64,000 bases of DNA. Source: Arthrobacter sp. U41. GTDB lineage: Bacteria > Actinomycetota > Actinomycetes > Actinomycetales > Micrococcaceae. Each line of letters opens with the position of its first letter. Position 1 is the stretch's first letter. The stretch covers positions 3,472,001-3,536,000 of the forward strand of contig NZ_CP015732.1 in NCBI RefSeq assembly GCF_001750145.1, written 5' to 3'. This document shows positions 51,040-60,973 of this stretch, piece after piece. A program made the position numbers and the translations under genes. The notes beneath the pieces were generated by a model. The model ran no database searches and was not told the origin of the DNA. It saw only the letters and a program-made list of their open reading frames with translations.

Positions 51040-52173
51040 TCACTGCATGGTGAAACGGCGGGCCACGAATCCGTTGACGGCTGGCATGGCGGCCGCCGCC
51101 GCGATGGCGCGGTTCCGCACTGTCCACGGTCCTGCCGGCAGGGGCCGCCCCAGCGCCATGTTTATTTCGGACTGGCGGGCCGCCCGGGCTGCTGCCGCCG
51201 TGCGGGTGAGCTCGAAGTTGCGGAGTTCCACCCCCACGTCCGCGCCCCGCAGCGACGCGAGAATCACCGGGGCGAGGGCGGCGGCGTCGAGCCAGCCCAG
51301 GTTCATGCCCTGGCCTCCGATCGGGCTGATCTCGTGGGCGGCGTCGCCGATCAGCACCGTCCTGCCGGCCACCATCCGGCGCACCAGCCGTGAGCGTACG
51401 CCAAAGCGGCTCAGCATGCTGTTGCTTGCGGCATCGACGTCGATCCCGGTGCGTTCCCCGATCCGTTGCACGAGCCAGCGGGCGTCCCCGCCGCTGCCGG
51501 TTTCCGCAAGGCGCACCACCCAGCGGCGCTGCTTCCCTGGCAGCGGAAAGGACTCCACGATTCCCCCGGCTTCCAGGAACAGGGCCGCGTCCGGACCGAA
51601 TCCGGTGCTGTCGGCGAAGTCGCCCATAAGGTAGCTGTCCGGGTAGTCCTTCGCCCGGACAGCGGTGCCCAGCAGGGAGCGGACGGTGGAACGGACGCCG
51701 TCGGCTGCAACCACAAGGGCCGCCGTGTGGCGGACCGTCCGGCCGGCCGAGTGCGCTTCCGCGGTGACGTGGCCGGCGTCGGACTGCAGCCGGGTGACCC
51801 GGACACCGCGGTGCAGGGCCACGGGGTCGAGTTGCCGGACGTGTTCCTCCAGCACCGCCTCCGTCCGGGACTGCGGCAAGGCGAGGACGAACGGGAAACG
51901 GTCGGAGACGCCGGCGAAGGACATCTCGGCGAGCCGGGTGCCACCGCCGAGGGCGATGCCGCGCCGGATCGGGATCCCTTCGGCCACAAGGTCCGGTGCC
52001 ACGCCGATTGACTGGAGTGCCTCCAGTGACGGCGGATGGATGCCGATCGCCCGGGAGCGCGGCTCGGCGCCGGTCCGCTGCTCCAGGACCCGCACGCTCA
52101 CGCCGTGTTGCAGCAGCAGGGCGGCCATGAACAATCCCACCGGCCCGCCGCCGATCACCAGCACGTCAAGCAT
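51040..52173 (-). CDS. FAD-dependent aromatic monooxygenase
   Basis: A 377-aa class A flavin hydroxylase: VLVIGGGPVGLFMAALLLQ at the N-terminus (dinucleotide binding), the DG-type motif AADGVRSTVRSLLG, and the GD motif LIGDAAHEISPIGGQGMN. It overlaps the methyltransferase gene by 8 nt. In a type III PKS cluster it probably hydroxylates the resorcinol or pyrone ring, like SrsC of Streptomyces griseus. Confidence 0.88.
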   Translation of the reverse strand: MLDVLVIGGGPVGLFMAALLLQHGVSVRVLEQRTGAEPRSRAIGIHPPSLEALQSIGVAPDLVAEGIPIRRGIALGGGTRLAEMSFAGVSDRFPFVLALPQSRTEAVLEEHVRQLDPVALHRGVRVTRLQSDAGHVTAEAHSAGRTVRHTAALVVAADGVRSTVRSLLGTAVRAKDYPDSYLMGDFADSTGFGPDAALFLEAGGIVESFPLPGKQRRWVVRLAETGSGGDARWLVQRIGERTGIDVDAASNSMLSRFGVRSRLVRRMVAGRTVLIGDAAHEISPIGGQGMNLGWLDAAALAPVILASLRGADVGVELRNFELTRTAAAARAARQSEINMALGRPLPAGPWTVRNRAIAAAAAMPAVNGFVARRFTMQ

Positions 52174-52867
52174 GGGCCCGGCCCTTGTCCAGGATCAGCA
52201 GGTTACGGAAAGGGGCGTGGCGGAGGACGGCCCAGCCCGGGGGAGCGGCCGCCCGGAGTTCGGCCGTGGTGTAGCTGCGGCGGATCGAGGTCAGGCCGTC
52301 CTGGCGGATGTAGGAGCCGGTGAAAGGCCAGGAGGAGGCGAAGAAGAGGCGGTAGGCGGCCGGGCTGCGCCGGAGGTCGTTGTGGATGACCAGGCCGCGG
52401 CAGAGTCCGGCGGACTCGGTCAGGAACGCCGGAAGGTCGTCCTCCGCCAGATGGTGCAGCACATGGTTGGAGACCACCAGGTCGAAGCTCAGCCCTTCGC
52501 TGGCCAGTTCCGCTGCCGTGGCCTGACGGAACGTCACGCCGGTGGCCGCGTGCCGTTCCGCGGCGAAGCGGCTGGCGCGGGGATCCGGATCGATGGCTGT
52601 GATCCCGAGGCGCAGTCCGTCCAAGGCGGCCCAGCGGGCGAGCATCACCGGCACGTCGCCGCCGCCGCAGCCGATGTCCAGCAGGGTGGCCGGGGTGCGC
52701 TGGCTGAGTCGAGGCCTGAGCTGGCGCAGGTAGATGCCCCGCCAGCCGGCGACGGCCCGGTTGACCAGGGCAAATTGGGCGTAGGTACGGTCCAGCCGCA
52801 CCGGATCGCAGCCGGGAAGGTCCATTTCCTCGACGGCATGAGCCGCGCGATCCCGCAGTAGTTGCAC
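52166..52867 (-). CDS. SAM-dependent methyltransferase of the PKS cluster
   Basis: A 233-aa class I methyltransferase with motif I LLDIGCGGGDVPVMLARWA at about 60-78 and motif II GLRLGITAIDPDPRAS. It starts 10 nt after the PKS stop and overlaps the monooxygenase start. It probably methylates the polyketide product. It is not the membrane ICMT-type methyltransferase (SrsB) that accompanies srsA in Streptomyces. Confidence 0.87.
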   Translation of the reverse strand: MQLLRDRAAHAVEEMDLPGCDPVRLDRTYAQFALVNRAVAGWRGIYLRQLRPRLSQRTPATLLDIGCGGGDVPVMLARWAALDGLRLGITAIDPDPRASRFAAERHAATGVTFRQATAAELASEGLSFDLVVSNHVLHHLAEDDLPAFLTESAGLCRGLVIHNDLRRSPAAYRLFFASSWPFTGSYIRQDGLTSIRRSYTTAELRAAAPPGWAVLRHAPFRNLLILDKGRAHA

Positions 52868-52877
52868 GCTCGGGTTC

Positions 52878-54086
52878 TCAGGCCAGGGCCGATTCGGGCC
52901 GGGTTGCGGCGTCCCCCGACGATGCCGTTTGCCCGCCGCTGCGGGGGCTGCTGATCTTGGTGAAAAGCGCCGTCTCCACGGTCAGTCCGGGCCCGAATGC
53001 CATGGAGCAGATCCGTTCGCCGCCGTCGGCGTCCACTGCCGCCGGCGGCAGGTCAAGGATGTGGCGGAGCACGAACAGCACGGTGGCGCTGCTCATGTTC
53101 CCGTAGTTGCGCAGGGTCTCCCGGGCCGGGACCAGCTGCTCGTCGCTGAGCTCCAGCCGGGACTGGACCTTGTCCAGGATGCTGCGGCCGCCCGGGTGGA
53201 TGGCCCAGTGCCGGATATCGCGGTAGGGGAGTCCCTGCAGGGAAGATTCCCGGGAGAGGAGCGGCTCCAGGGCTCCGATGATGTGGTCATCGATAATGTG
53301 CGGGACGTAGTTGCCCAGGACCATCTCAAAGCCCTCGTCGCCGATGTTCCACGCCATCGATTCCTCGCCGACCGGGGTCAGGACCGTCTCGAAATGGTCC
53401 AGCTGCAGCAGTGCGGGTTCGTCCGGGACCTCCCGGGCGGTGACGATTGCCGCTGCCGCGCCGTCGGCAAACAGGGCCGACCCCATGATGGTGTCCGGAT
53501 CGTTGGAGGTCCGGACGTGCAGCGAGCAGAGCTCGGCGCAGACCACGAGGACGACGGCGTTCGGGTCCGCCTCGCAGAAGGACTTGGCGGCCCGCAGCGC
53601 CGGGAACGCCGCGTAACAGCCCATAAATCCAAGGTGGTAGCGCTGGACGGCTGGGTTCAGGCCGAGGGCCCGGACGATTTTGTAGTCCGGGCCGGGGTTG
53701 AAAAAACCGGTGCAGGACACCGTGACGAGATGAGTTATGTCAGGTGAAGTGATTCCGCGGCAAGCGTCGAGGGCCTTTTGTGCCGCCTCGATGAACAGTT
53801 TGGTGGCCTCGGTGGCGAAGATGTCGTTGCGCACCTTTGTGCTGGGGCTGAGCAGCAGGCCGGTGCCGGCGTCGAAAAACCGCGGATTCTCCGCCCGGTG
53901 GTCCCTGGTCATTTCGTCCACAGCCGTGTAGCGGGTGTCGATGGCGGCGGAATCGAAGCAGGTGCTGACCAGCCGGGTGCCCAGCCGGGTGAGACCCGGC
54001 TGGGCCGCGAATACGTCCCGGGCCTCCGTCTGGATCAACACGGTTGGCGGGACAGCAGTTTCGAGGGACCTCAGGTAGACCGTCAT
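52878..54086 (-). CDS. Type III polyketide synthase
   Basis: A 402-aa chalcone-synthase-like homodimeric ketosynthase. The catalytic triad is C157 (GFMGCYAAFPALRAA), H297 (HWAIHPGGRSIL) and N330 (NYGNMSSATVLF). It extends an acyl starter with malonyl-CoA and cyclises the chain to alkylpyrones or alkylresorcinols. The genes after it, a methyltransferase and a flavin hydroxylase, resemble srsABC of S. griseus, which makes phenolic lipids. The 157 bp upstream, to the tandem-SRPBCC gene, has no clear second gene. Confidence 0.94.
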   Translation of the reverse strand: MTVYLRSLETAVPPTVLIQTEARDVFAAQPGLTRLGTRLVSTCFDSAAIDTRYTAVDEMTRDHRAENPRFFDAGTGLLLSPSTKVRNDIFATEATKLFIEAAQKALDACRGITSPDITHLVTVSCTGFFNPGPDYKIVRALGLNPAVQRYHLGFMGCYAAFPALRAAKSFCEADPNAVVLVVCAELCSLHVRTSNDPDTIMGSALFADGAAAAIVTAREVPDEPALLQLDHFETVLTPVGEESMAWNIGDEGFEMVLGNYVPHIIDDHIIGALEPLLSRESSLQGLPYRDIRHWAIHPGGRSILDKVQSRLELSDEQLVPARETLRNYGNMSSATVLFVLRHILDLPPAAVDADGGERICSMAFGPGLTVETALFTKISSPRSGGQTASSGDAATRPESALA

Positions 54087-54242
54087 GGTTCATTCTCAGT
54101 GAGGGTGGAGCAGAAGACAATGGACCCGGCCGCAGACGCGGGCCCGAAGCTGGTTGGATGGAGCCAGATGACTCCGACGGAGAGCGCGACCGTGGCCCCG
54201 CCCTGGAGATGGAGACCATGAGCAGGGCGGGCCGCAGTGGTG

Positions 54243-55151
54243 CTAGGACTGGTTGCCGCCTGATTCTGCAGTGGCCTTGATGCCTGCAAGGAGTTCGGCC
54301 TGGCCGCGCTCGGAGATCTTGATGACGAGCGAATCGACCGCGGCCTCCGCCCAGTTGGCCGGGACGACGTCGGATCGCATCCTGAGCCGGGTCCCGCCGT
54401 CGTTCGGCTCCAGTGTCACGTTGAAGACGGGACCCAGTGCCGCCTTTGACGTGAAGTGTTCATTCGGAACGAACTCGGTGTACTCGTGGGTCGTCTTGAG
54501 CGGGATGCCAAGGACCTTCCACGCGGCCTCGAATGTTGTCCCGACGCCCTGGGGCGTGGTCCTGAGATTGGTGACCTGGACGTCCGGCCCCAGCCATACG
54601 GACGGATCTTTCACAAGATCAAACACGCGCTGCACCGGGGCGGCGATGGTGATTTCGTCGGACCATGTCAGCGTATGGGGGAGCTTCGCCTTCTTCTCGG
54701 TTTCGGTGACCGTCTTCTCGCCGCTCTCCACCATGCTCTTGATGTTGGCCACCAGGGCCTCGATGTCGTCCTCGGCCCACCGGGCGAAGATCGCCTGGAC
54801 CGGCACCCGGACGAACGGCGCCTGGATGTCGAAGCTCTGTTCGACGTTCAACTCTGTGCCGACGTCGACCGGTTCGAGGGAGAACGTGAGCACCGGACCC
54901 ACCGAGGCCTTGGACACGATGCGCTTTCCGGGAATCACCTCTCGGTACTCGTGGGTCACGGACATGTTGATGCCGAGCATCTTGGCCGACCAGCGGGCGG
55001 AGGTGCCGACTCCGTCTGGCTTGATGTTGACCCCGGTGACCTCGCTGTCACCGGGGAACGCGGACATCCAGTGTGTCGGATCACTTAGGAAGGAGAACAC
55101 TTTCTCCACCGGCGCATGGATCGTAATGCTCTGAACCAGGTTCTTAGTCAT
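54243..55151 (-). CDS. Tandem SRPBCC (START-like) domain protein
   Basis: A 302-aa protein made of two START/Bet v1-like domains of about 145 residues, each beginning with a related strand (SITIHAPVEKVFSFLSDPTHW; EITIAAPVQRVFDLVKDPSVW) and ending in a long helix. The ATG at 55151 has GAGGAG 9 nt upstream. It lies directly upstream of the type III PKS on the same strand. Related folds cyclise polyketides, so a supporting role is possible, but many SRPBCC proteins only bind lipids. Confidence 0.82.
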   Translation of the reverse strand: MTKNLVQSITIHAPVEKVFSFLSDPTHWMSAFPGDSEVTGVNIKPDGVGTSARWSAKMLGINMSVTHEYREVIPGKRIVSKASVGPVLTFSLEPVDVGTELNVEQSFDIQAPFVRVPVQAIFARWAEDDIEALVANIKSMVESGEKTVTETEKKAKLPHTLTWSDEITIAAPVQRVFDLVKDPSVWLGPDVQVTNLRTTPQGVGTTFEAAWKVLGIPLKTTHEYTEFVPNEHFTSKAALGPVFNVTLEPNDGGTRLRMRSDVVPANWAEAAVDSLVIKISERGQAELLAGIKATAESGGNQS

Positions 55152-55366
55152 CGTTAAATCTCCTCTCGGACAGAAACGGCATCCGGACACGTGCCGGTTC
55201 CAGTGCAGTCCAAAGCCGCGTGCTCACCCAGAGGAAAAGGTCCCTGCATCCTGGATTGCTGGGCATCGCATCCGCTGCAACCTCGGTTGCTCAAACGCCG
55301 ATAATCAACATTATGTCAACTCATGGCGATTTGACGATCTGGTCAGGGGCGTCATGCATGTCCGGT
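55152..55366. other. Intergenic left flank of the transposon
   Basis: About 215 bp with a visibly lower GC content than neighbouring genes and no supportable gene. It holds the promoter region of the tandem-SRPBCC gene and the sequence into which the transposon inserted. Confidence 0.5.
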
Positions 55367-55371
55367 CTCAG
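55367..55371. repeat. Target-site duplication, left copy
   Basis: CTCAG immediately outside the left terminal repeat; identical to 60370-60374. A 5-bp duplication is the hallmark of Tn7-family insertion. Confidence 0.88.
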
Positions 55372-55396
55372 TGTCCTTTCTCAATTTAGTTGGCCA
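55372..55396 (+). repeat. Left terminal inverted repeat (25 bp)
   Basis: Begins TGTCCTTTCTC and ends GGCCA; the exact reverse complement of 60345-60369. The outermost TnsB-type 17-bp repeat (55380-55396) forms its inner part. Confidence 0.92.
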
Positions 55397-55456
55397 TTTT
55401 CGCAACTTACCTGGCCACCTACGGATTTCTGGGGTTTGTCTCAGTTAATCTGGCCA
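55380..55456 (+). repeat. Three left-end TnsB-type repeats
   Basis: Three 17-bp copies of a CTCA(A/G)TTTAxTTGGCCA-like motif at 55380-55396, 55401-55417 (diverged, CGCAACTTACCTGGCCA) and 55440-55456 (CTCAGTTAATCTGGCCA), all in the same orientation. Repeats of this kind bind TnsB in Tn7-like ends. The innermost copy stops 2 bp before the tnsA ATG. Confidence 0.85.
55446..55451 (+). promoter_or_regulatory. -10-like box of tnsA inside a TnsB repeat
   Basis: TAATCT lies 7 nt before the tnsA ATG (55459), the same spacing as other leaderless genes in this window. It is part of the innermost left-end repeat, so TnsB binding there would block transcription. Confidence 0.5.
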
Positions 55457-55458
55457 CC

Positions 55459-56274
55459 ATGGATGCTGTTCAGCCGCTGAGGTCGCTGCCTTCGAACATG
55501 ACGGACGAGACCCGTGTGCTGGCGCGCCTGGACGGGCGTATGGCGAATACGCCGCTTTCTGGGGCTCTTGCATCGCTCGGGCTTGAGTCGGCGCTTCCCG
55601 TGCGGGCGTTCTTCTCGTGGACGGGCAAGCGGAACTACGAGGGCAGGTGGTGGTCCAGCACGGTCCGGTCCCATGTTGGGTTCGAGAGCCTGCTGGAGCG
55701 CGACTTCATACTCTCGGCGGACCATAACCGGGATGTCGTTGGGGTCGCGTCCCAGCCGTTCGCGTTCCTGTGGCCGCGCGGGACCGAGGGTTCCCGGGGG
55801 CACGTGCCCGACTTCTTCGTCCGGCTGCGGGATGGCACGGGCAGGGTCGTCGACGTTAAGCCTGCAGGCCGTGTCCGGTCCGCGGAGCGCCAGTTCGGCC
55901 TGACCCGCGAAGCCTGCGCGGCGGCCGGATGGGAGTACGAGGTCTTCACCGGTCTGGCCGAGCCGCTGGCGTCGAATCTGCGGTGGCTCGCCGGCTACCG
56001 CCAGGACCGCTTCGCCCCCGACGGCACCGCAGCGGCCGTGCTGGTCGACTCGTTTAACCCGGAGGCCTCTTTGACCGGGGGCGTGCGGCGGGCAGCCAAG
56101 GCGCTGGGCATCGACGAGGGCATCGTCCGCGCGCAGGTGCTCCACCTGCTGTTCACGGGGGTGCTGGCCGTCGACCTCGACGCCCTGCTCACGCAAAACA
56201 CGCGGGTGTCCCTGGGTGTCGCACCGAAGGCGGGCTCCGCCTGGGACGCTAGGTCGCGGGAGGCCGCGTCGTGA
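55459..56274 (+). CDS. tnsA: TnsA-like transposon endonuclease
   Basis: A 271-aa restriction-fold nuclease that cuts the 5' ends of the transposon. Its candidate catalytic residues are E76 (GFESLLERDF), D118 (HVPDFFVRL) and K134 (VVDVKPAG), in the order and approximate spacing of Tn7 TnsA (Glu-Asp-Lys). The C-terminal part is a basic, helical TnsC-binding region. The ATG at 55459 follows the last left-end repeat. The stop overlaps the GTG of tnsB (GTGA at 56271-56274). Confidence 0.85.
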   Translation: MDAVQPLRSLPSNMTDETRVLARLDGRMANTPLSGALASLGLESALPVRAFFSWTGKRNYEGRWWSSTVRSHVGFESLLERDFILSADHNRDVVGVASQPFAFLWPRGTEGSRGHVPDFFVRLRDGTGRVVDVKPAGRVRSAERQFGLTREACAAAGWEYEVFTGLAEPLASNLRWLAGYRQDRFAPDGTAAAVLVDSFNPEASLTGGVRRAAKALGIDEGIVRAQVLHLLFTGVLAVDLDALLTQNTRVSLGVAPKAGSAWDARSREAAS

Positions 56275-58316
56275 AGTCTGTGCGCCTGTTCGACTTCATC
56301 CAGTTCGATGGCGCCTCCTGGCAGGTGGCGGCCCACGACGGCGCCGAGCTGGCTTTGAAGAATCTCTCCACCGGCCGCATCCGCCGGGTGCCGGTCGCCG
56401 AGCTGCTTGCCGACGACTCGTACCTGCCTGACGCGCCCGCTCCCCTGCCGTCCCTGGCCGGTGTCGCGCTGCTCGAAACGCTCGAGCCCGGTGCCCGGGC
56501 GCAGGCTGAGCTGCTGCACCGTCACGTCTACGAGCTCGTCAACGGGACCCCGCCGGACGCCGCCCCCGGGACGGCGCCCAAGCCGGAGTACGACCTGGCC
56601 AACCCGCTGCTGCGCCGCATCGAGGCCAAGGCGGCCGAGCTCGCCGCCGCGGGCACGCCGATCGCGGCCCGTACGTTGCGCCGCCACGTCGCCGCCTACC
56701 GCAAGCAAGGCATCGCCGGACTTGCCGACGGGCGCAACACACGTCAGAGCACCCTGGCTGGCTGGGCCGACCCGGAGCTCGTGGCGCTGCTTGAGGCCGA
56801 GATCGCAGGGCAGACCAACACCTCCACCGGGACACGGTCCCGCGCCGTCACCCGAGTCCGTGCCCTCGCCGAGCGGCAGGGCCTGGGGGTCCCGTCCCCC
56901 GCCACTCTCTACCGGATTCTGGCCAAACTGGAGAAGTCCCGGCACCCGTTCGGCAACGCCACGACCCGCAGGACCCAGGCCAGCCGGCCCGACCGGACAT
57001 GGGGCCGGCAGGCGCCCGTGCGGCCTGGGGAACTCGTGGAGATCGACTCCAGCCCTTTGGACCTGATGCTCATCTACCCTGACGGGTCCACGGGCAAGGC
57101 CGACCTGACCGTCGCGTTGGACATCGCGACCCGGACGCCGCTGGCGGCGGTCCTGCGCCCCGAGGCGACCAAGGCAGTCGACGCCGCGGTCTTGCTGGCC
57201 AGGGCCATGACCCCCTTGCCGCTGCAGCCCGGCTGGGACGCAGCCCTGGGCTACTCCCGATCGGTCCTGCCCCAGGGCATGATCCCTGGCGGCGCGGACG
57301 TCCGCTCCGCGATCGCTGCCAAGCCCGTCATCGTGCCAGAGTCGATCACCGTGGACCGGGGCAAGGTCTACATCGGCGCCACGTTCACCGCCGCGTGCGA
57401 ACGCCTCCAGATCAGCCTGACCAAGGCCGCACCGCGGACCGGGACCGACAAGCCGCACATCGAGCGGTTCTTCGCCGCGGTCAACTCGGGCTTCACGCAG
57501 TACCTCGCCGGCTACACCGGACCGAACGTCGTCCGCCGCGGCAAGGACCCCGCCGCCGAGGCACGGTTCGGCCTCGCCGATGTCCAGAGCCTGCTTGACT
57601 GGTGGCTCGTCGCCGTCTGGCAGAACCGCCCGCACCCGGGCCTGCGCCATCCGGCCATGCCGAAGAAGGACCTGACCCCGAACGAGGCCTTCGCCGCGCT
57701 CTCGGGCGTCGCCCCGCAGATTCCGGTCACGCTCACCCGCGAGGACTACATCGCCCTGCTGCCCCTGGACTGGCGCACCATCCAGCCGTACGGGATCAAC
57801 TTCCACAACCTCCACTACGACAATCCCGCCCTGCACGAATACCGGGGCGTGCCCTCGGGGCTGCCCGCCCCCGCGAACGGACGCTGGGAGATCCGTTACG
57901 ACCCCTACCGGCTGCAGTCCATCCATGTCCGAGACCACCGCAAGGGCGTCTGGATCGAAGCCGAATGGACCATGGCACGCCAGCTCGCCGGCCCGTTCTC
58001 CCTCGACGTCCTCGCCGCCGCGAAAAAGGCCCTGGACAGACGCTCCGGCAGCATCCCCGGCGCGGACCTGCTCGCAGAGGTCAATCGCATCATGACCGCC
58101 CCGTCAGGTCGGGCGGAGGCCCGGGCCGCCAGACGCGCCAGTGCCTCGCCGTCGAGCGTTCCGGATCCGGCTCCGCTGCGGCTTCTGGCCCCTGTCTCTG
58201 AAGGAGAACCTAAGCCCGAACCGGGCGCCGCTGCCCCGTCCGCGGCGACTGCGACCGCACCTGCGGGTCCGCGTCCGCGTCGTCATGCCCGCCGCATCGA
58301 CCTTCTGGAGGACTGA
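56271..58316 (+). CDS. tnsB: TnsB-like DDE transposase
   Basis: A 681-aa Mu/Tn7-type transposase with N-terminal helix-turn-helix DNA-binding regions (AARTLRRHVAAYRKQGIAGL; RVRALAERQGLGVPSPATLYRIL) and an RNase H core with D259 (VEIDSSPLD), D362 (ITVDRGKVYIG) and E398 (HIERFFAAVN), i.e. D-x-D-35-E. A Mu-type C-terminal beta domain follows, then a disordered Ala/Pro-rich tail that ends RRHARRIDLLED, possibly the TnsC-binding hook. A GGAGG site for tnsC is inside its last codons. Confidence 0.93.
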   Translation: MKSVRLFDFIQFDGASWQVAAHDGAELALKNLSTGRIRRVPVAELLADDSYLPDAPAPLPSLAGVALLETLEPGARAQAELLHRHVYELVNGTPPDAAPGTAPKPEYDLANPLLRRIEAKAAELAAAGTPIAARTLRRHVAAYRKQGIAGLADGRNTRQSTLAGWADPELVALLEAEIAGQTNTSTGTRSRAVTRVRALAERQGLGVPSPATLYRILAKLEKSRHPFGNATTRRTQASRPDRTWGRQAPVRPGELVEIDSSPLDLMLIYPDGSTGKADLTVALDIATRTPLAAVLRPEATKAVDAAVLLARAMTPLPLQPGWDAALGYSRSVLPQGMIPGGADVRSAIAAKPVIVPESITVDRGKVYIGATFTAACERLQISLTKAAPRTGTDKPHIERFFAAVNSGFTQYLAGYTGPNVVRRGKDPAAEARFGLADVQSLLDWWLVAVWQNRPHPGLRHPAMPKKDLTPNEAFAALSGVAPQIPVTLTREDYIALLPLDWRTIQPYGINFHNLHYDNPALHEYRGVPSGLPAPANGRWEIRYDPYRLQSIHVRDHRKGVWIEAEWTMARQLAGPFSLDVLAAAKKALDRRSGSIPGADLLAEVNRIMTAPSGRAEARAARRASASPSSVPDPAPLRLLAPVSEGEPKPEPGAAAPSAATATAPAGPRPRRHARRIDLLED

Positions 58317-58319
58317 GCC

Positions 58320-59363
58320 ATCGCGACCCCCGACTCCCTGACCGCCTGGCGCCAGTTCGTCGACCACGCCCCGATCGAGCCGGAGCGGCTCTCCCGCAAG
58401 GAGCTCAAAGCCCTCTCACCCGAGGAGAAGGATGCCTACGACCGGGAACGCTTCGGCTGGCTGGCGGCCGACACCGTGCTGGAGACCACGGACACGCATG
58501 CCCTTACCCGGCAGACCAGAATCATCCTCTCGCGCAACGCGGCCACCACCGCCACGGCGCGGCGAGGGCTCGCGATCTCCGGGGCGGCCGGGATGGGCAA
58601 GTCCACGGCCGCGCTGCTGATCGGCAAGCGCCATGAGAAAGCCGAGCGCAGGCGCCTCGAACGTATCGATGACGTGTCCTTCGCCCCGGTGGTCTATGCC
58701 GTGGTCCCCCCAGCGACCACACCGAGGATGCTCATGCAGGCCTTCGCCAGCTGGCTCGGCCTACCGGTGCCCCAGCGGTCCACCGCGCAGTTGGTCACCG
58801 AGCACGTCGTGGGTGTGCTGCGCACCTTGGGGACATCGCTGGTGGTCGTCGACGAAGTTCACAACCTGACGACGAACAGGCAGGCCGGCGCCGAGGCGGC
58901 CAGCACCCTCAAACAGTTCGCCGACCGGCTGGACGCGACCTTCCTCTACGCCGGCATCGACCTGCCCACCACGGACCTGTTCGCCGGGGACATGGGGAGG
59001 CAGATCAAGGCCAGGATGATCATGCATCAGATGCGCCCCTACGGGAACGGATCCAAGACAGACCGCGAGGCCTGGACCGAGCTCGTCCTCGGCGTCGAGG
59101 ACCTCCTCCCGCTTGCCGAGCACGAACCCGAGTCCCTCGCCGAGGAAGCCGCATACCTGTGGGACCGCACCGGCGGGAGCATCGGCGGCCTCCGCGCCCT
59201 CCTGTCGGACGCGGCCATCGGAGCGATCATCGACGGCACCGAAAAGATCGACCGTCGCCGCCTCCAGGCCACAGCCACGGACTACGCCGCCGAAGAACAC
59301 CACCACACACGTGCAGCCATGTCCGCCGGCAGCCACAAACGCGGGCTGCAGCGGGCCCAGTGA
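58320..59363 (+). CDS. tnsC: TnsC-like AAA+ ATPase with an apparent ATC start
   Basis: TnsC links target selection to TnsB. With a start at 58320 it is 347 aa: Walker A GAAGMGKST with K94 and Walker B VVVDEVHNL with D178-E179. The codon at 58320 is ATC. A GGAGG site (58307-58311) lies 8 nt before it, and no ATG or GTG occurs in frame until the GTG at 58476. The residues in between (ATPDSLTAWRQFVDHAP and onward) look like real coding. Either ATC is used, or an ATG has mutated and the protein is truncated to 295 aa. The stop overlaps the GTG of tniQ. Confidence 0.85.
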   Translation: MATPDSLTAWRQFVDHAPIEPERLSRKELKALSPEEKDAYDRERFGWLAADTVLETTDTHALTRQTRIILSRNAATTATARRGLAISGAAGMGKSTAALLIGKRHEKAERRRLERIDDVSFAPVVYAVVPPATTPRMLMQAFASWLGLPVPQRSTAQLVTEHVVGVLRTLGTSLVVVDEVHNLTTNRQAGAEAASTLKQFADRLDATFLYAGIDLPTTDLFAGDMGRQIKARMIMHQMRPYGNGSKTDREAWTELVLGVEDLLPLAEHEPESLAEEAAYLWDRTGGSIGGLRALLSDAAIGAIIDGTEKIDRRRLQATATDYAAEEHHHTRAAMSAGSHKRGLQRAQ

Positions 59364-60196
59364 CGATCCAGCCGCTCCCCGTCCCCACCAGGATCTTCGG
59401 CGGCGAGGGCTTGATCAGCTACGCCTCCCGCCACGCCGCCCGCAACGGCACGACCGTCGAGAAGATCGAACGCTCGCTCTCCGAAGCGGGATCCATCCCC
59501 AAGCCCAGCCACCGCCGGACCCCGGAAAGGCTGCAGGCCTGGCGCAGCCTCGGCGCGCTTCACGAGAACGCCTTCGCAACGCCCGCCGTGATCGACGGCG
59601 CCGATGTCATCGACCGCATGCTCTGCCTGCGCTGCACCCAAGGATCAGGCGGAACCGGGCGGCTGCCGCGCATCGGGTGGGTCTGCGCCGGACACCGGCG
59701 CTGGCTCGGCACGCCACAGCACGACATCCGGTCCCTGCCCGAACTCGTCGCCGCCGAACGCCACTACCGCCGGGTCCTTGCCCCACGCGGCGTCCTCGTC
59801 CGATCCCCCATCATGCAATGGGCGCGCGAATGCGCGATCACCGGGATCGCTCAATCCGAGATGGCCGAGCGGAATCGTCGAGTCGCCACCTCCAACCCCA
59901 ACCTGCTCACCTACCCCGAAACCGTCAGAATCGCCCGACTTGTCACGGACCCGGGATTCAACACAGGGATGCTCCAACCCGGGTTCCGTGCCCGTGAACG
60001 CCACGCCGTGAGCGTCAAAGCCAGTACGGGGATGTTCCCCCAGGCCGAGGACAACGAATCATGGCGCGTAGCCCACCGGATCACCGTCATGTTCAACGCA
60101 ATCGCCGGAGAGATCGAGAGGAATCCCTCCCGTACGGCAGGCACTACGCCATACAGCACGACACTGGCTCAAGCCTGGAGAATCTGGGGAAGATAG
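59360..60196 (+). CDS. tniQ: TniQ-domain target-selection protein
   Basis: A 278-aa protein from the GTG that overlaps the tnsC stop (59360-59363). The N-terminal PLPVPTRIFGGEGLISYASRHAARNG is a TniQ start, and the zinc finger is C89-x2-C92 ... C109-x2-H112 (MLCLRCTQG, WVCAGHRRWL). It is short: it has no long C-terminal DNA-binding part like Tn7 TnsD, so the site it recognises is not obvious. Confidence 0.85.
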   Translation: MTIQPLPVPTRIFGGEGLISYASRHAARNGTTVEKIERSLSEAGSIPKPSHRRTPERLQAWRSLGALHENAFATPAVIDGADVIDRMLCLRCTQGSGGTGRLPRIGWVCAGHRRWLGTPQHDIRSLPELVAAERHYRRVLAPRGVLVRSPIMQWARECAITGIAQSEMAERNRRVATSNPNLLTYPETVRIARLVTDPGFNTGMLQPGFRARERHAVSVKASTGMFPQAEDNESWRVAHRITVMFNAIAGEIERNPSRTAGTTPYSTTLAQAWRIWGR

Positions 60197-60275
60197 CCCA
60201 CCGGCCACGGCACCCCACTCAGCGACACCGGGCCTCAGCCCCGCGGGACAAGGACGCCGAGCGTTCCATACGGAA

Positions 60276-60361
60276 TGGCCAACTAAATTGAGACGGTTCC
60301 TACCCCATCCGTCTCAATTTATCTGGCCTTTTCCCACGTCAAGGTGGCCAACTAAATTGAG
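60276..60361 (-). repeat. Three right-end TnsB-type repeats, middle one reversed
   Basis: Copies at 60276-60292 and 60345-60361 read TGGCCAACTAAATTGAG on the plus strand, the inverse of the left-end copies. The middle copy, 60313-60329, reads CTCAATTTATCTGGCCT on the plus strand, so it faces the other way. Confidence 0.85.
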
Positions 60362-60369
60362 AAAGGACA
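60345..60369 (-). repeat. Right terminal inverted repeat (25 bp)
   Basis: Exact reverse complement of the left terminal repeat at 55372-55396; ends GGACA at 60369. Confidence 0.92.
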
Positions 60370-60374
60370 CTCAG
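60370..60374. repeat. Target-site duplication, right copy
   Basis: CTCAG directly outside the right terminal repeat; pairs with 55367-55371. Confidence 0.88.
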
Positions 60375-60634
60375 TTTTGTTGGCAAGAATCTCAATAGAC
60401 ATGGCGAGCTACGGGATTTCGTCCTGTCTCACTCGAGTTGGCAACGCGGATCGGCGGCTCCCATGGAGCCTGCGGGCCGATCGGCTGGATTCTAGTGCCG
60501 AGAGGACTTGGAAGCAGAGAAACATAAGCCTACTTATAATTCAAGCCTTCTACGTTCTCGCGGCGCATGGTAGTCCTACAGAGTGGAATCGGACAGGCAG
60601 AATGCGGGCACCTGGTAGTGCCCCGGAGCGGGAC
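60375..60634. other. Right flank of the transposon, no gene seen
   Basis: About 260 bp of lower-GC sequence between the transposon and the DUF6480-like gene. An open frame runs across it, but its composition does not look like coding sequence. Confidence 0.5.
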
Positions 60635-60862: not shown

Positions 60863-60973
60863 CGGACCCAACTCCTCGCACCGGTTGACTATGGACTATT
60901 GGTAAGCCTGCTGATAATTCTGGTTCTGTCAAGACCGGACACCCGAGAGGGAACGTAGCGAAGGAGCAAGCTG

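Follow-up and report, generated by a model that had tools for sequence, protein, structure and literature searches.

A cargo-free Tn7-like element of 4,998 bp, consisting of tnsA, tnsB, tnsC and a tniQ-like gene, lies at positions 55372 to 60369 of the window (the whole stretch of 64,000 nucleotides of Arthrobacter sp. U41 DNA that was analysed), and it is probably a member of an actinobacterial Tn7-like family that uses dif as its attachment site on both chromosomes and plasmids; on the strength of sequence comparisons, a probability of about 0.87 is assigned to this reading. The dif site is the position at which XerC and XerD act to resolve chromosome dimers. Within the family the orientation and spacing of the insertions are nearly fixed, in that the left end faces dif and is situated 33 to 50 bp beyond one of the two Xer arms, usually that of XerD. 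The preliminary description of this DNA had proposed a minimal copy without cargo, and a complete, cargo-free Tn7-like element is indeed supported; the adjacency to dif and the nesting within an older relative had been missed.

The element is delimited by terminal inverted repeats of 25 bp, the left end (LE) at 55372 to 55396 on the + strand and the right end (RE) at 60345 to 60369 on the - strand, which match each other perfectly in inverted orientation. These are flanked by two copies of the target-site duplication CTCAG, the left at 55367 to 55371 and the right at 60370 to 60374 (both +). The perfect repeats, the duplication on both sides and four genes in one direction with TnsA, TnsB, TnsC and TniQ motifs had already been claimed in the preliminary description, and all are borne out, the four genes lying on the + strand. 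With up to three mismatches allowed, the LE motif occurs three times in the window, always at the ends of the element, the number expected in shuffled sequences being 0.00. An array of three repeats of about 21 bp (starting at 55379, 55400 and 55439; repeat family D1) occupies 55379 to 55459 (+) at the left end, and these repeats are presumed to be TnsB sites. The right-end repeats are spread over 60276 to 60362, with those at 60276-60293 and 60345-60362 on the - strand and that at 60312-60332 on the + strand (families D1 and D9; inverted pairs I4, I5 and I10). The TGT...ACA ends, multiple end repeats and 5-bp duplication of Tn7-like elements are therefore all present. All other open reading frames of at least 90 aa listed inside the element overlap the four genes. 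The cargo-free build is not unique to the window copy: target duplications also flank relatives of 4,826, 4,845 and 4,967 bp, and a single element would roughly fill each of three contigs that are 4,845-4,952 bp long. It is plausible that the window element is a minimal autonomous copy.

The four genes correspond to a TnsA-type endonuclease, a TnsB DDE transposase, a TnsC AAA+ ATPase and a TniQ/TnsD-type selector. The tnsA gene (55459 to 56274, +), for which the ATG start was chosen by comparison with relatives, encodes a TnsA-like endonuclease subunit that matches NCBIfam NF033179 (TnsA_like_Actin; 1.1e-63) and Pfam PF08722 (TnsA N; 1.6e-6). The tnsB gene (56271 to 58316, +) encodes a DDE transposase of 681 aa with a match to Mu-transpos_C (1.8e-9) and profile matches to solved TnsB chains (best 6.8e-25); D259, D362 and E398 are invariant among seven aligned sequences and, as assigned by reading, are presumed to be the DDE residues. 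The AAA+ ATPase gene tnsC (58320 to 59363, +; TniB 3.1e-14, AAA_22 2.1e-12) has an ATC codon as its apparent rare start, following a GGAGG motif (GGACTGAGCCATCGCGAC, 58314-58325), and this arrangement is identical in the window, L008 and L077; in other relatives the start position holds ATG (L042) or GTG (L047). The tniQ-like gene (59360 to 60196, +) encodes a protein of 278 aa with an invariant CxxC...CxxH arrangement; it has no Pfam match of its own, and a weak match to PF06527 was obtained for 6 of 16 aligned relatives. The Foldseek fold comparison yielded no significant row, and the rows of the VIA fold comparison are modest, with no informative match there for the C-terminal half of the TniQ-like protein.

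The dif site beside the element comprises 28 bp at 55294 to 55321 (+), with the XerC arm at 55294-55304, a spacer at 55305-55310 and the XerD arm at 55311-55321, and it is identical at 24 of 28 positions to the Frankia alni dif given in the available part of PMC3025954. When at most two mismatches are allowed, five sites in the genome fit CGATAAN6TTATGTCAA, and only the one at 55294-55321 is exact. DnaA is encoded at C1:1,215,288, the opposite point of this 4,386,369-bp contig is at about 3.41 Mb, and the site is at 3.53 Mb, about 119 kb off. As the sole exact match, and one close to the antipode of dnaA, the site is most likely the chromosomal dif. The LE starts 50 bp past its XerD arm and faces it, which agrees with the upper limit of about 65 bp set for the proposed family; in 30 of the 38 ends examined the distance is 35-63 bp. 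The host also encodes XerD, the match scoring above the curated cut-off.

Several further observations concern dif and related recombination systems in this host and genus. A second, weak dif-like sequence (15/18) is located at 60909-60932, about 540 bp past the right end, and the region next to dif, 52166-55190, contains a chalcone-synthase-like gene, a methyltransferase and other genes, all named by reading. The host's 178-kb contig has a pair of oppositely oriented dif-like sites separated by a few bases (L049, G000:C2:107,427-107,474), possibly a plasmid dif module. At seven loci (L115, L126, L127, L135, L140, L149 and L153) dif sites of the genus have a downstream stretch in common, ACTCTGCGTATTGCATCAGATGAATCA, which is perhaps another dif-associated element. 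Clusters with three tyrosine-recombinase matches are present in multiple copies (G000:C1:1886356-1889050, 3110130-3112824 and 3314215-3316909; C2:37659-40410 and 164726-167477), and we take these to resemble recombinase-in-trio elements.

Placement beside dif recurs among relatives. A scan of named genome contigs with a TnsB alignment produced 39 loci. For scoring with an 18-position dif consensus, 38 of them were combined with the window and plasmid NC_019339 to give a set of 40. A dif-like site scoring at least 15 is found at -910 to -975 from tnsB in 18 of the 40, a count for which the ends need not be set; these 18 are from Arthrobacter, Mycobacterium, Mycolicibacterium, Corynebacterium, Kocuria, Nesterenkonia, Tersicoccus, Propioniciclava, Enemella and Dermacoccus. 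At three more loci (L080, L081 and L082, from Microbacterium and Mycobacterium) the dif-like site is at the left end and extra DNA separates the left end from tnsA. When left ends of relatives and miniatures are considered, a dif-like site scoring 14/18 or better lies within 150 bp of 31 of 38, about 20 of the 38 ends having been set by eye with dif in view, a circumstance of which the tnsB offsets are independent. Twenty-nine of the 31 are at 35-52 bp, one is at 63 bp, and one, beside a weak and reversed site, is at 8 bp; elsewhere in these loci, 16 of 7,329 windows of 150 bp contain a site scoring at least 14. The account in the preliminary description implies that a Tn7-like element of the ordinary kind landed by chance where it lies, and the anatomy taken alone is indeed that of any small Tn7-like element, but the association with dif across genera renders this explanation extremely improbable.

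The proposed dif-targeting is also apparent at the level of the TnsB phylogeny, where the window's clade comprises 28 rows and receives full support. Twenty-two rows of this clade were scored, and 21 of these are at dif (18 on the XerD side and 3 on the XerC side), with one lacking dif. Outside the scored rows, the left end of L057, which is the same element as L008, lies beside an exact dif on another contig of its genome. On plasmid NC_019339, which is typed as conjugative, the left end faces a 17/18 dif on the XerC side. The dif sites at loci of one genus have arms in common, as would be expected if the host dif is the target. The motif CCGATAAN6TTATG occurs once in 15 of 21 genomes, in each case beside the element, and two or three times in the other six, the reversed control giving one match in all; by coordinates, the matched site is the one beside the element in 17 of 17 cases checked, two of them from multi-match genomes. 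By TnsB matches at E 1e-100, such elements were detected in 10 of 396 genomes sampled from the order and 7 of 396 sampled from the phylum. At another 18 dif-side loci, including ones from Mycobacterium, Corynebacterium and Kocuria, a search by exact duplication plus inverted repeat recovered 0 of 18 right ends; at L058 an inverted end (20/24) lies at a distance of 5,582 bp but lacks a duplication. Two incidental observations were made. A second, distant TniQ-like frame (E 5e-8) is present at L060 2080-2964, about 6 kb upstream of the element, and a MAG labelled Ectothiorhodospiraceae (Pseudomonadota; L073 and L072) has a TnsB nearly identical to that of Enemella, likely as a result of binning contamination.

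Exceptions to the placement are the seven of 38 left ends without dif within 150 bp, namely L077, L083, L084, L085, L093, L159 and L039. The closest DNA relative of the window element (L077; 81%), on plasmid pHiyo8-1, has disrupted reading frames and a dif about 3.9 kb away, and L039 is a 342-bp miniature in genome G122. Four others are distant relatives with clear ends, from Streptomyces (L085 and L093), a Pseudonocardiales MAG (L083) and Nonomuraea (L084), the last with a 14/18 site about 440 bp away. In two instances the adjacent site is not the best one nearby: at L056 it is weak (14/18) and a better site (17/18) is 0.9 kb off, and at L080 it scores 15/18 and a 17/18 site is 7 kb off.

The arrangement can also be recovered by a pattern that ignores the transposase, consisting of dif, 32-56 bp and a TGTCC end (TGTCCNNTCTC). 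Of 395 genomes in the host's family (Micrococcaceae by its named members), 23 contain this pattern and 0 its reversed control. Twenty of the 23 sites were analysed anew, the remaining three being those of G000 (the window's own genome), G182 and G243. A TnsB relative is present at four of the 20 (one of them partial), and a right end with duplicated target at four; the latter include a second cargo-free element (L198; 4,967 bp, duplication ACGGC), whose TnsB falls in a distant group, together with miniatures 1,105 and 357 bp long. No TnsB relative was found at 16 of the 20, three of the stretches (L200, L204 and L210) being too short to tell, and the L204 stretch carries the left end of the L008 element. 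The remaining pattern sites are presumably remnants, and some may be unrelated.

In the window, the insertion has split an older, MITE-like miniature relative within its left end. The first 13 bases of that left end are at 55359 to 55371 (+), and the remainder, a left-end half whose right half is missing, is at 60375 to 60512 (+), as defined by alignment with L002. When joined, the flanks read TGTCCGGTCTCAGTTTTGTTGGC..., a diverged left end, and they are identical at 127 of 144 positions to a complete miniature element of about 248 bp at G000:C1:735 kb, with one CTCAG. This second copy in the window genome (L002 1493-1740; G000:C1 about 735,106; 248 bp) has both ends and no target duplication, and it lies 8 bp from a weak, reversed dif-like sequence. 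A search that tolerated three mismatches recovered no partner right end for the older miniature, either in the window or in the 19 kb of L006. The preliminary description had proposed looking for an empty site with a single CTCAG, and this was obtained in part, as an uninterrupted paralogous site in the same genome; no allelic empty site was found among 61 genus genomes searched with the left flank (54200-55248). The search gave seven long matches, and since none of these relatives has the block beside dif, no allelic empty site is shown; the block and an exact dif are apart in five of them, and in the other two no exact dif match was found.

Such variation of the dif neighbourhood between related strains is in keeping with another explanation, by which insertion occurs at many places and the copies near dif survive, the terminus being neutral or hypervariable. 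Neutrality would nevertheless leave unexplained the spacing of 35-52 bp in 29 of 31 cases, the fact that the left end is the near end, and the insertion at a plasmid dif, and it is considered very unlikely. Targeting of dif remains the preferred reading.

New copies inside older left ends were found at three dif loci, those of the window, G182 and G141. At G182 (L040, G182:C2:113-116 kb) four 248-bp miniature units form an array beside a dif-like site, and one unit is split by about 1.7 kb of other DNA. Since three of the four units are identical (246/246) and the other one is interrupted, repeated transposition is no more likely than a single nested insertion that was later amplified in tandem. 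The nested copies suggest that target immunity between diverged ends is weak. The nested end in the window gave rise to the first idea entertained, that the element aims at the ends of its own relatives and that dif is incidental, and all three nested loci agree with it. The position of the duplication within the old end differs, however, covering bases 9-13 in the window, bases 3-7 at G182 and two flank bases plus bases 1-3 at G141 (-2 to 3), whereas the distance to dif stays similar, and the flanks at most of the other dif-adjacent loci have no clear older end, as judged by eye and not scored. The idea was dropped on these grounds, and we hold it to be highly improbable. The insertion point thus seems to be set by dif, from which its distance is almost constant, rather than by the old end, within which its position shifts.

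Tn7 has its attachment site at glmS. The element resembles Tn7 and Tn7-like elements (TnsABC with TnsD/TniQ) in its gene set, TGT...ACA ends, 5-bp duplication and several end repeats, and in being inserted beside the site and not in it; it differs in that the site is dif and not glmS, tRNA genes, comM or guide-RNA targets, in the lack of cargo, and in that one site serves chromosomes and plasmids. Tn5053/Tn402 elements are TniQ-type, lack tnsA and carry a resolvase. These resemble the present element as TniQ-type elements that use a recombination site of the host replicon, and are unlike it in that here tnsA is present, the target is dif and no resolvase appears in the ORF list; according to the portions of the literature available, Tn5053/Tn402-type elements hunt the res sites of serine resolvases. 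The IS1202 family (ISAjo2 and others), as presented in the sections of PMC10132070 available, consists of dif/pdif hunters with a TnsB-like transposase and no partner proteins. The likeness extends to TGT/ACA ends, a 5-bp duplication and a single orientation beside dif on chromosomes and plasmids, but IS1202 is a single-gene element of 1.5 kb that inserts 5 bp from the XerC arm (PMC10132070, same sections), whereas the element described here has four genes and 4,998 bp, and its family keeps a distance of 33-50 bp, in most cases from the XerD side.

IMEX elements and phages also use dif, recombining at dif itself through the host XerC/XerD, whereas here a DDE transposase inserts beside dif with target duplication. 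Among the matches listed in searches of the open PMC literature, as far as their titles and the openings of their abstracts go, no TnsABC/TniQ element at dif is reported. In the main texts of PMC8649781 and PMC10293859 dif is absent as a whole word and Xer occurs once, in a reference title; in the text retrieved, PMC12907356 and PMC8987985 have 'Tn7-like' in their reference lists only, and PMC12893667 mentions tniQ away from dif. Within these sources a dif-targeting Tn7-like family was not found described, and dif hunting by IS1202-type elements is already known.

With regard to mechanism, TnsA and TnsB would cut and join the DNA, TnsC would act as the ATPase link, and the TniQ-like protein would choose the target by reading either dif DNA or the Xer proteins bound to dif. 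Because insertion leaves dif intact, dif would be a safe site; the same zone would be reusable, and therefore a new copy can come to be placed inside the left end of an old one. A TniQ-like frame (E 1e-4 or better) is present in 23 of the 28 rows of the window's TnsB clade, and four of the other five are contigs that end early (L068, L072, L073 and L078). The fifth, L081, has no TniQ-like frame that could be found, though its contig does not end early and its element sits at dif, which lends something to a different view, that dif is indeed targeted, though not through TniQ, being recognized instead by TnsB or TnsC or through contact with XerC/XerD. A precedent is offered by the IS1202 family, which has no TniQ and targets dif by means of a lone TnsB-like transposase (PMC10132070, in the sections available). 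The presence of the TniQ-like frame in most of the clade, and a spacing unlike the approximately 5 bp of IS1202 (same source), speak for reading by the TniQ-like protein, and the different view is regarded as less likely than not. Three TniQ-like proteins of subclades with XerC-side elements have 257-258 residues and are shorter than the rest of the alignment, the side having been scored for one of these three loci.

If the TniQ-like protein is the selector, it may sense dif as occupied by XerC/XerD, that is a nucleoprotein and not DNA alone, so that the host's own dimer-resolution machinery would steer insertion; this is put forward tentatively, at somewhat less than even odds. Tn7 employs two selectors, TnsD and TnsE. 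Were nucleoprotein sensing to apply, a single selector would do the work of those two, giving the element a safe place on the chromosome as well as access to dif-bearing plasmids. As dif is predicted in most bacterial chromosomes surveyed (PMC3025954, in the part available) and dif-like sites occur on plasmids, it constitutes a conserved and predictable address. Serial nesting at dif would make the zone a record of past insertions. A small and complete TnsABC-TniQ system that finds dif would represent a new class of Tn7 attachment site and would link Tn7-like elements with the res-site and dif hunters, and it would offer a compact system for studying target reading by TniQ proteins, whether of a site or of a host protein bound there.
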